DNA from: Gammaproteobacteria bacterium
Lineage (GTDB): Bacteria; Pseudomonadota; Gammaproteobacteria; GCA-002705445; GCA-002716945
DNA: 43,821 nt
Reading direction: 5' to 3'
Assembly: GCA_002718845.1 (NCBI GenBank)
Contig: PBFS01000002.1
Span: 40,051 to 83,871, forward strand
Shown here: positions 33,885 through 37,509 of the stretch, in pieces
How the letters are laid out: the number at the start of each line of letters is the position of its first letter
Position numbering within the stretch: position 1 is the first letter of the stretch
Made by a program: the position numbers and the translations under genes
Notes under the pieces: generated by a model
Told to the model about the DNA's origin: nothing
Database searches by the model: none
Seen by the model: only the letters and a program-made list of their open reading frames with translations

Positions 33885-34718
33885 TTACTCTTTATCTTTC
33901 TTTTCTGAATCAGGCAAATTTTTTTCTGTGGTTTGTTTTGTTTCGGTGGGCTCTTTTACTTCTTCTTTAACTTCTTTTGCTTCTTCTTTTGCTTCTTTTG
34001 CTTCTTTTTTAGCTGATTTTTTAACTTCTTTTGTTTCTTCTTGAAGTTCTCCATCTTTTGTTAGAATCTCTTTTAAGGTATATTTTTTCTGAGTGTGTTT
34101 AATAATTACGTTTGATCCATCATGTCCAGGTATTGAGCCTTTTACTAATATAATATTATCTTCCGTAAATATTTTTACTATAACTAAATTTTGTATTGTG
34201 TTTTTTACATTTCCTAATTGACCAGCCATTTTTTTACCTTTGAATACACGTCCTGGATCCTGACATTGCCCAGTTGATCCTAAAGCTCGGTGAGATAATG
34301 AATTACCATGAGTCGCATCTTGCATTGTAAAATGGTGCCTCTTTACACCACCTTGAAAACCCTTTCCAATTGTTGTTCCAGTAATATCAACGTGCTCACC
34401 TTCTTTAAATAAGTTTAAATTAATTGATTTGCCAATTTCTAGGCCTTCAATTTCTTTATCATTTAATCTAAATTCAGTTAATACTTTTCCAGGAGTTGCA
34501 GATGCTTTTTTATAATGCCCTAAAACAGCTTTATTGGTTCTTGACTCTTTTTTTTGACCAAAAGAGACTTGGATTGCTTGATATCCATCTTTTTCGAGTG
34601 TTTTTATTTGAGTTATAGTATTTGGAGACACATTAATAGCTGTAACTGGTACTGATACACCAGAATTATCAAAAACCCTTGTCATTCCAGCCTTTTGGCC
34701 AATTATTCCCAAACTCAT
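33885..34718 (-). CDS. rplC: 50S ribosomal protein L3 with charged C-terminal tail
   Basis: L3 of 277 residues, against about 209 in E. coli. The core is intact: G-I-I-G-Q-K-A-G-M-T-R-V-F at the start, G-K-G-F-Q-G-G-V-K-R-H-H-F in the middle, and S-R-A-L-G-S-T-G-Q-C-Q-D-P-G-R-V-F-K-G-K-K-M-A-G-Q-L-G. After the normal end (V-I-I-K) there is a tail of about 70 residues made mostly of K, E, A and T, with K-E-A-K-E-E-A-K-E-V-K-E-E-V suggesting a charged helix. The tail is in frame with ordinary codon use. The gene starts 119 bases after rpsJ, an unusually long gap inside the S10 operon. Confidence 0.96.
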   Translation of the reverse strand: MSLGIIGQKAGMTRVFDNSGVSVPVTAINVSPNTITQIKTLEKDGYQAIQVSFGQKKESRTNKAVLGHYKKASATPGKVLTEFRLNDKEIEGLEIGKSINLNLFKEGEHVDITGTTIGKGFQGGVKRHHFTMQDATHGNSLSHRALGSTGQCQDPGRVFKGKKMAGQLGNVKNTIQNLVIVKIFTEDNIILVKGSIPGHDGSNVIIKHTQKKYTLKEILTKDGELQEETKEVKKSAKKEAKEAKEEAKEVKEEVKEPTETKQTTEKNLPDSEKKDKE

Positions 34719-34837: not shown

Positions 34838-35407
34838 CTAATTTAATTCAATTTGAACATCAACGCCTGCAGCTAAATCAAGCTTCATTAAAGCGTCAAC
34901 AGTTTTATCTGTAGGCTCTACTATATCCATTAACCTTTTATGGGTTCTTATTTCATACTGGTCTCTAGCATCTTTATCTACATGAGGAGATATTAATATG
35001 GTAAACCTTTCTTTTCTGGTTGGTAAAGGTATTGGTCCTAAAACTCTAGCTCCTGTTCTTTTTGCTGTTTCAACAATTTCTTTTGCAGAAATATCTATTA
35101 ATTTATGATCAAAAGTTTTTAACCTAATTCTTATTGTTTGTGTTTTAGGTTTTGTAGATGTAGTTTTTTTAATTGATACATTAGTTTTCGTTTCAATTAT
35201 TTTTGGTTCTTTTTTTTCAACAACTTTAGCAGCTGTTTTCTTTTTTATAGTTTTTGAAACTTTTTTTGGAGCAGCGGCTACTTTCTTTTTAGTTGTAGTT
35301 GTTTTTTTCTTTGTAGTTTTTGAAACTTTCTTTGAAGCAGCAACTACTTTCTTTTTACTTGAAGTTTTTTTCTTTTTCGTGGTTTTTGAAACTTTTTTTT
35401 CTACCAT
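34838..35407 (-). CDS. rpsJ: 30S ribosomal protein S10 with 86-residue lysine-rich N-terminal extension
   Basis: S10 (also NusE in transcription antitermination). The C-terminal ~103 residues are a complete S10, from [15 protein letters not shown] (91-105) through [13 protein letters not shown] to D-V-Q-I-E-L-N. In front lie 86 extra residues, mostly K, T, S, A and V, with a 22-residue repeat starting K-K-V-S-K-T at residues 4, 26 and 48. I read the DNA between the extension and the core and found no ATG, GTG or TTG that could start a normal S10. The ATG at 35407 lies 2 bases after the fusA stop, where tuf would normally come. The tail resembles histone-H1-like basic proteins; its role is unknown. 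Confidence 0.95.
35201..35398 (-). repeat. Three 66-base tandem repeats encoding 22-residue lysine-rich units in rpsJ
   Basis: Units lie at 35333-35398, 35267-35332 and 35201-35266 (residues 4-25, 26-47 and 48-69). Units 1 and 2 are close copies, while unit 3 keeps K-K-V-S-K-T and K-K-K and then diverges. The period is a multiple of three, so copy number could change without breaking the S10 frame. Confidence 0.8.
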
Positions 35408-35409
35408 TT

Positions 35410-37509
35410 TTATGACGCCTGTTGAACTAATGTTTCTGCTACACTATTTGGCAGCTCTGCATATTTAGTAAATTCCATTGTATAAGTAGCTCTTCCTTGT
35501 GACATTGATCTTAATGATGTTGCATAACCAAACATTTCAGATAAAGGAACTTCTGCTTTAACAACATTTCCTGCAACAGTGTCTTCCATCCCTAACACGA
35601 TACCACGTCTTCTGTTTAAGTCTCCTGTAACATCTCCAAGATAATCTTTTGGTGTAACAGCTTCTACAGACATTACCGGTTCTAATATTACAGGTTTTGC
35701 TTTTTTAGCGCCTTCTTTAAAAGCTTGAGAAGCTGCAACTTTAAATGCTACTTCACTAGAATCAACATCATGAAAAGATCCATCGTAAAGTGTTACTTTT
35801 ACATCAACAACTGGAAAACCTCCAATAACGCCATTTTCCATTTGTTCTTTAACACCCTTTTCCACTGGGTTAATAAATTCTCTTGGTATTGTGCCTCCAA
35901 CTATAGAGTTAACAAACTCAAACCCCTTTCCAGACTCTTGTGGTTCTAGTTTTAGCCAAACATGCCCATATTGCCCTCTTCCTCCACTTTGTTTGATATA
36001 TTTGGCTTCTTGTTCTACGGTAGATCTAATAGTTTCTCTATATGCAACCTGAGGTTTTCCAACATTTGCTTCTACGGAAAATTCTCTTTTTAATCTATCA
36101 ACAATAATTTCTAAGTGTAATTCTCCCATTCCAGATATAATAGTTTGATTAGATTCTTGATCAGTTGCAACTTTAAAAGATGGGTCTTCTTGTGCTAATT
36201 TTCCAAGCGCTAATCCCATTTTTTCTTGATCTGCTTTAGTTTTAGGTTCTACGGCAATAGATATAACAGGGTCTGGAAACTCCATTCTTTCAAGAGTTAT
36301 AATTGATTCTGGCGCACATAAGGTGTCACCAGTTGTTACATCTTTTAATCCAACAGCAGCAGCTATATCTCCTGCTCTAACTTCTTTTACATCTTCTTTT
36401 GAGTTTGCGTGCATTTGTAAAATTCTTCCAATTCTTTCTTTTCTTTGAGTAACAGCGTTATATACGGTATCGCCTGCTTTTAATATTCCTGAATAAACTC
36501 TAAAAAAAGTTAATGATCCGACAAATGGGTCTGTTGCAATTTTAAATGCTAATGACGAAAAAGGTTCTTCATCTGAAGGTTTTCTGTCTGCTGGTGTTTC
36601 GTCTTTGTCATCAAGTATCCCTTTGATTGCGGGCACGTCTGTAGGTGAAGGCATAAAATTTATTACAGCGTCAAGCATAGCTTGAACACCTTTATTTTTA
36701 AAGGCAGTTCCACACATTGCAAGAACAATCTCGTTTGATAAAGTTCTTATTCTTAATCCTTCTATAATCTTATCTGTTGGTAAGTCACTATTAGTAAGAT
36801 ACTCATCCATAAGTTCTTCGCTTGCTTCCGCTGCAGTCTCTAGTAGTTGTTCTCTTAATTCATTTGCTTTATCAACTAATTCGGCTGGTATATCAGTAGT
36901 TTCAAATTTCATTCCCATAGATTTTTCGTCCCAGATAATTGCTTTCATAGCAATTAAATCAACAACACCTTTAAAAGTATCTTCTGCTCCTATCGGTACC
37001 TGTAGTGCTACTGGGTTAGAACCAAGTCTTGTTTTTATTTGTTCAACTACTCTAAAAAAATCTGCTCCTGCTCTATCCATTTTATTAACAAAAACCATTC
37101 TTGGTACATTATATTTGTTAGCTTGTCTCCAAACAGTTTCTGATTGTGGTTCTACACCTCCAACAGCGCAAAATACAGCAACAGCACCATCTAATACTCT
37201 AAGCGATCTTTCAACTTCAATAGTAAAGTCGACGTGACCGGGGGTATCAATAATATTTATTCTATGTTCAGGGAATTGAGATGTGCTTCCTTTCCAAAAG
37301 CATGTTGTTGCAGCAGATGTAATTGTTATACCTCTCTCTTGTTCTTGCTCCATCCAATCCATTGTTGCGGCGCCATCATGTACTTCTCCAATTTTATGAG
37401 ATACACCCGTATAATATAGAACTCTTTCAGTTGTTGTGGTTTTACCCGCATCTATATGAGCCATGATACCAATATTTCTATAATTTTCTATTGAAGTTTT
37501 TCTAGCCAT
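35410..37509 (-). CDS. fusA: Elongation factor G
   Basis: EF-G of 699 residues, the GTPase that drives translocation. G1 is A-H-I-D-A-G-K-T (17-24), the D-T-P-G-H-V-D-F switch II motif and N-K-M-D follow, and domains II-V are complete through the C-terminal [11 protein letters not shown]. It lies 3 bases after rpsG. tuf, which normally follows, is absent: rpsJ begins 2 bases after the fusA stop. Confidence 0.98.

Follow-up and report, generated by a model that had tools for sequence, protein, structure and literature searches.

Ribosomal protein S10 (uS10, NusE) is small and of near-constant length in bacteria, and it is a meeting point of translation and transcription through the ribosome head, NusG and NusB. 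The E. coli protein has 103 amino acids, and the PDB lists intact bacterial S10 chains of about 101 to 110, beside one further uS10-domain chain of 169 amino acids (28jw_j); chain 7ooc_I, of 108 amino acids, is presumably the S10 of Mycoplasma pneumoniae. In eukaryotes, uS10 (RPS20) bears an N-terminal tail of only about 20 residues, which is a target of ubiquitination, a pathway that bacteria, to our knowledge, do not possess. In yeast, where Hel2 ubiquitinates this tail, the residues closest to it that can be seen in the structure are found near the interface between two collided ribosomes, the tail itself being unresolved (PMC6224477). During transcription-translation coupling, S10 contacts the KOW domain of NusG (PMC10931766), and the KOW domains of MutS2 bind uS10 at collided disomes (PMC10897456). 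Chloroplast uS10c has been located in nucleoids (PMC11260468).

Here we describe a bacterial S10 of 189 amino acids. In the window (the whole stretch of 43,821 nucleotides that was analyzed, part of a gammaproteobacterial draft genome that is 0.97 Mb long and 82.6% complete), the open reading frame list places rpsJ, a 189-codon gene, on the reverse strand at 34838-35407 between fusA and rplC. The gene heads the S10 operon, before rplC, and directly follows fusA without an intervening tufA. The main features are as follows.

34838-35407, reverse strand: rpsJ, ribosomal protein uS10 (NusE), 189 amino acids plus stop codon (open reading frame; Pfam PF00338, 1.6e-33; NCBIfam PRK00596, 5.8e-48)
35150-35407, reverse strand: N-terminal lysine-rich extension, residues 1-86 (composition; outside the NCBIfam and Pfam S10 matches, which start at residue 89-93; no predicted secondary structure, low pLDDT)
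34838-35149, reverse strand: standard S10 core, residues 87-189, plus stop codon (about 83-96% identity to other gammaproteobacterial S10 cores)
35410-37509, reverse strand: fusA (EF-G), stop codon 2 nt ahead of the S10 ATG, no tuf gene between

The protein satisfies both bacterial S10 equivalog models (PRK00596, 161 bits against a cut-off of 85; TIGR01049, 144 bits against 72.75). Because the NCBIfam models cover residues 89/90 to 187 and begin at model position 1-3, the usual S10 start falls at residue 87, which leaves residues 1-86 as the extension. These 86 residues include 33 lysines (38%), no arginine, four acidic residues and no aromatic residue, with a pI of about 10.7; threonine, valine, serine and alanine are also present. 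They run 86 residues past the E. coli terminus, in the range (>20 residues) that defines a disordered ribosomal-protein extension. AlphaFold, run on a shallow alignment of 20 sequences, modelled the S10 core at moderate confidence from residue 91 on (pLDDT 55-80) and assigned no secondary structure to the residues ahead of it (pLDDT about 35-55); the extension is predicted to be intrinsically disordered. By homology, it would be expected to project from the part of the 30S head that bears the eukaryotic uS10 tail and the NusG and MutS2 contacts.

A 66-nt (22-residue) tandem repeat was detected by TRF at 35234-35399 (2.5 copies, 85% matches, score 248), and comparison of the units extended it by a third, degraded one.

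35333-35398, reverse strand: repeat unit 1, 22 residues (TRF; unit comparison)
35267-35332, reverse strand: repeat unit 2, 22 residues (TRF; unit comparison)
35201-35266, reverse strand: decayed repeat unit 3, 22 residues (unit comparison)

Units 1 and 2 differ from each other at 11 of 66 nucleotides and 5 of 22 amino acids (17 of 22 residues are the same). Unit 3 differs from them at 12-13 of 22 amino acids, 9-10 agreeing, and the final 17 residues of the extension are non-repeating. The description of the extension as 22-residue repeats, made by a sequence-only reading of this DNA, therefore applies to most of its length (two good units and one decayed) and not to the last 17 residues. The same reading had proposed a 189-residue S10 with an in-frame, basic and repeated N-terminal extension of 86 residues, which is borne out by the open reading frame, the start of the NCBIfam match, the composition and TRF. 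It had also stated that no usable internal start exists; indeed, the first codon of the gene is the sole in-frame ATG, GTG or TTG ahead of the S10 core in the source genome.

Translation of the extension can be judged from the nine genomes that, as detailed below, carry such a tail (the source genome included in the count of carriers). All nine share an ATG just past the fusA stop. Six have no alternative ATG, GTG or TTG before the core, and the other three have an internal GTG or TTG at unrelated positions. The other five frames of the 258-bp extension contain 5, 7, 6, 0 and 9 stops. By itself, an open frame is unavoidable, since S10 is essential and cannot start elsewhere. None of the nine tails contains a stop codon, versus a simulated open fraction of 3% at 0.5 substitutions per site if translation began further in, at a rare codon, and left the tail untranslated. 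That no stops have accumulated in nine tails at the divergence seen argues for, though short of proof, translation from the first ATG. Since the fusA stop lies 2 nt before this ATG, translation of fusA and rpsJ is probably coupled.

We examined a family sample of 25 genomes from six genera, in which S10 is present in 16; those relatives that bear names are uncultured Gammaproteobacteria, most of which seem to come from ocean surveys. As the sequence-only reading had suggested, the extension and its repeat number were sought in these relatives: a tailed S10 occurs in all nine gene-bearing genomes of three genera (one in g1, three in g2 and five in g6), with tails of 51-91 residues and a variable number of repeats. 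A short S10 occurs in all seven gene-bearing genomes of two genera (one in g3 and six in g5), with 9-11 residues ahead of the core IRIRL motif, among which a small basic cluster is already present. In three g5 relatives (L010, L011 and L013), S10 has an apparent GTG start directly after the fusA stop. The nine remaining genomes (G003, G006, G009, G012, G015, G016, G020, G022 and G023) lack both S10 and L3, so that the operon is missing from these drafts, not the tail; one of them is 94% complete, which suggests that assembly or binning often loses the S10 operon. In a tree built from EF-G, the S10 core and L3, the carriers grouped apart from all short-S10 relatives (IQ-TREE ultrafast bootstrap 100, FastTree 1.000). 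This distribution would most simply reflect a single gain of the tail in one clade, with no loss observed. The carrier clade consists of small-genome (about 1 Mb), mainly marine gammaproteobacteria.

Wider surveys covered 369 genomes of the class and 399 genomes of the phylum; among the best-scoring matches listed, which may pass over rare cases, no comparable S10 tail was found. The long open frames that do precede S10 elsewhere (24 loci in Gammaproteobacteria and the phylum) correspond to upstream read-through, the normal start lying 5-7 codons ahead of the core, and an apparent EF-G/S10 fusion in one family genome (G004, open frame 810) is interrupted by a TAA between the two genes. A search of the 25 family genomes with just the tail as query returned no other convincing copy, in an insensitive comparison that also missed the tails of the relatives; a second match in the genome itself is the same DNA read in another frame, with stops.

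All nine tails contain 31-40% lysine, no or one arginine and no aromatic residue. The earlier label "histone-H1-like" thus fits the lysine content and low complexity of the nine tails; as a statement of kinship it falls, since the S10 protein had no match to linker-histone or HC2-type profiles in Pfam or NCBIfam at E <= 1.

Comparison of the carriers indicates that the tail sequence and repeat number turn over fast, while the tail stays in frame and strongly positive. L003 and L006 form the closest informative pair: the core shows 2 amino acid changes in 98 codons and the tail 23 changes in 76 aligned codons, plus gaps; lysine sites are kept in 27 of 31 cases, versus 26 of 45 for other tail sites. 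Two further carriers, L005 (genome G018) and L008 (genome G001), share the same core protein sequence from the IRIRL motif onward and have tails of 51 and 84 residues, made of about 4 versus 7-8 units of 10 residues. Third codon positions of the core differ by 12-62% between carriers. The net charge of the nine real tails lies between +0.23 and +0.34 per residue; a neutral tail simulated under an assumed mutation model started at +0.33 and had dropped to about +0.12 once 0.5 substitutions per site had accumulated, so simple neutral drift would not be expected to maintain the charge at this divergence. The pattern is that of a disordered region selected for its composition, and selection on tail charge seems likely. 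We grade it no higher because the simulation rests on an assumed mutation model and because A-rich repeats may retain lysines with the help of slippage; lysines could also persist by mutational bias (AAA codons and slippage) instead of functional selection.

Among the ribosomal proteins encoded in the window whose lengths were compared with E. coli, only S10 (+86) and L3 (+68) are clearly longer than their counterparts; the earlier reading of S10 makes no mention of the L3 tail.

33885-34718, reverse strand: rplC, ribosomal protein L3, 277 amino acids; the TIGR03625 match is confined to residues 4-207, and the C-terminus continues as an E/K-rich extension of some 70 residues (about 33885-34097)

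The L3 tail (about 30-70 residues; 32-66 by the cut applied in the family comparison) occurs in all 16 family genomes that have the gene and is absent from three outgroup loci. Its presence in the short-S10 genomes points to an origin that predates, or is independent of, that of the S10 tail. It is mixed-charge to acidic, with a net charge of -3 here and 0 to -12 in other family genomes. A charge pairing of the two tails was considered and rejected: in most genomes with a short S10 the L3 tail is just as acidic or more so, which speaks against a matched origin. The lack of tufA between fusA and rpsJ (35405-35412) is an arrangement common across the family and found in two records labelled uncultured Thiothrix (L050 and L093); the same contig does contain an EF-Tu gene, truncated where the contig ends (C2:90043-90909).

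What the tail does may be read from its charge and position; the earlier reading suggested that it could project from the 30S head, bind RNA or DNA, or be cleaved off. We propose, with confidence about evenly divided, that it is a disordered polycationic arm on the 30S head that would bind RNA or DNA non-specifically near the contact with NusG, RNA polymerase or a neighbouring ribosome. The longer S10 would be made with this intrinsically disordered arm, which would stay on the protein after synthesis and extend from the 30S head close to where S10 meets NusG and RNA polymerase or another ribosome; there it would hold nucleic acid by electrostatic attraction, without sequence specificity, be it mRNA entering the ribosome, the rRNA of an assembling subunit or DNA close by. 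Binding of this kind would depend on nothing but charge and disorder, so that the tail sequence would be free to change and the repeats to expand and contract. The tail is missing from sister genera with the same operon and a similar genome size, and is therefore not generally needed. In a further reading that we hold to be distinctly unlikely, the ribosome is a nucleic-acid tether, leading ribosomes holding the RNA polymerase-DNA complex, the nucleoid or incoming mRNA via S10; if true, this would be an alternative or a supplement to NusG-based coupling in small-genome marine bacteria.

The tail could also be the product of nearly neutral expansion, the main rival and a somewhat unlikely account in which an A-rich, repeat-prone stretch after the S10 start grew by slippage in one ancestor and was tolerated at the exposed N-terminus without a specific job; as part of the same account, the charge would be retained since uncharged or hydrophobic versions would be harmful. 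This interpretation is consistent with the unit counts (about 4 versus 7-8) of the two close relatives with identical core proteins, with the small lysine cluster of short-S10 sisters (MATKKKKNTQ, MARRKKAQT), a possible seed of the tail, and with the fact that ribosomal protein extensions are common in bacteria and of largely unknown function (PMC9534751). It is harder to reconcile with the presence of a long tail in all nine carriers, in genomes of about 1 Mb, with a composition rich in K, T, S, A and V and nearly devoid of the hydrophobic and aromatic residues expected from AT-rich drift, and with lysines retained better than other residues. The better conservation of lysines also weighs against a propeptide, that is, a tail made and then removed before or during ribosome assembly, as does the lack of any conserved motif at the tail-core junction beyond the S10 core itself; although many propeptides share the freedom to vary seen in the tail sequence, and lysine-rich disordered segments are generally known to be protease-sensitive, we consider such processing quite improbable.

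It is improbable that the tail works when S10 acts as NusE, by strengthening the binding of NusB-S10 to nascent rRNA (boxA) or RNA polymerase and so aiding rRNA transcription and 30S assembly. E. coli S10-NusB does bind boxA RNA (PMC10931766) and NusB is encoded here and in 20 of the 25 family members, but short-S10 relatives have it too. A 16S rRNA gene was matched in none of the 25 family genomes, including one that is 99% complete in three contigs; these genes are probably missing from the drafts or withheld. It is very improbable that the tail acts in cis, through lysine-codon runs at the gene start that slow ribosomes and tune expression of the S10 operon after fusA: the first 86 codons hold 27 AAA and 6 AAG lysine codons, yet this AAA share is like that of other window genes (308 AAA to 54 AAG), and a pause signal would probably require much less than the length of this tail. 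The probability of an assembly or annotation artefact is practically negligible. Repeats are prone to misassembly and the draft genome is 82.6% complete; against this, always-in-frame tails occur in nine separately assembled genomes from separate projects, including CACOMO01, JAQWOB01, CAJWMM01 and PBHH01. An assembly error next to normal-length relatives was the objection foreseen by the earlier reading, and it fails, a short S10 being found only outside the carrier clade and the tail in independently assembled genomes. Neither a replacement of HU/IHF by the tail nor a link to SMR-domain rescue proteins was retained: ordinary-length HU/IHF genes and SMR-domain proteins are encoded in carriers and non-carriers alike.

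A polycationic arm on S10, apparently selected, together with tailless sister genera as natural controls, offers a direct route to learning what disordered ribosomal-protein extensions do and whether they influence coupling, collisions or rRNA assembly. The S10 tail is also a case of a core ribosomal protein altered by tandem-repeat gain and loss.

The S10 tail resembles the disordered extensions of 11 ribosomal proteins of Mycoplasma pneumoniae, which likewise run more than 20 residues past the E. coli terminus, are predicted to be disordered and are lineage-specific (PMC9534751). Here, however, the extension is N-terminal, lysine-rich, built of repeats and located on uS10, a protein not named in the main text of that study (PMC9534751). 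Eukaryotic uS10 (RPS20) shares with it a flexible, lysine-bearing N-terminal tail on the same protein (PMC6224477), a likeness that need not imply homology of the tails. Chloroplast uS10c also has extra N-terminal sequence (PDB chains of 122-197 amino acids) but, unlike the tailed S10, is nuclear-encoded. Much of its extra length is transit peptide. The bacterial H1-like proteins AlgP and HctB/HC2 have similar lysine-rich low-complexity repeats, those of AlgP being made of K, A and P; the S10 tail differs from them in lacking a family match, in its K/T/S/V composition and in its fusion to a ribosomal protein. In an open-access collection that covers only part of the literature, no earlier description of bacterial S10 with a long lysine-rich extension was found. 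Disordered extensions are already known on other bacterial ribosomal proteins, and the long lysine-rich one on S10 is a new variant.
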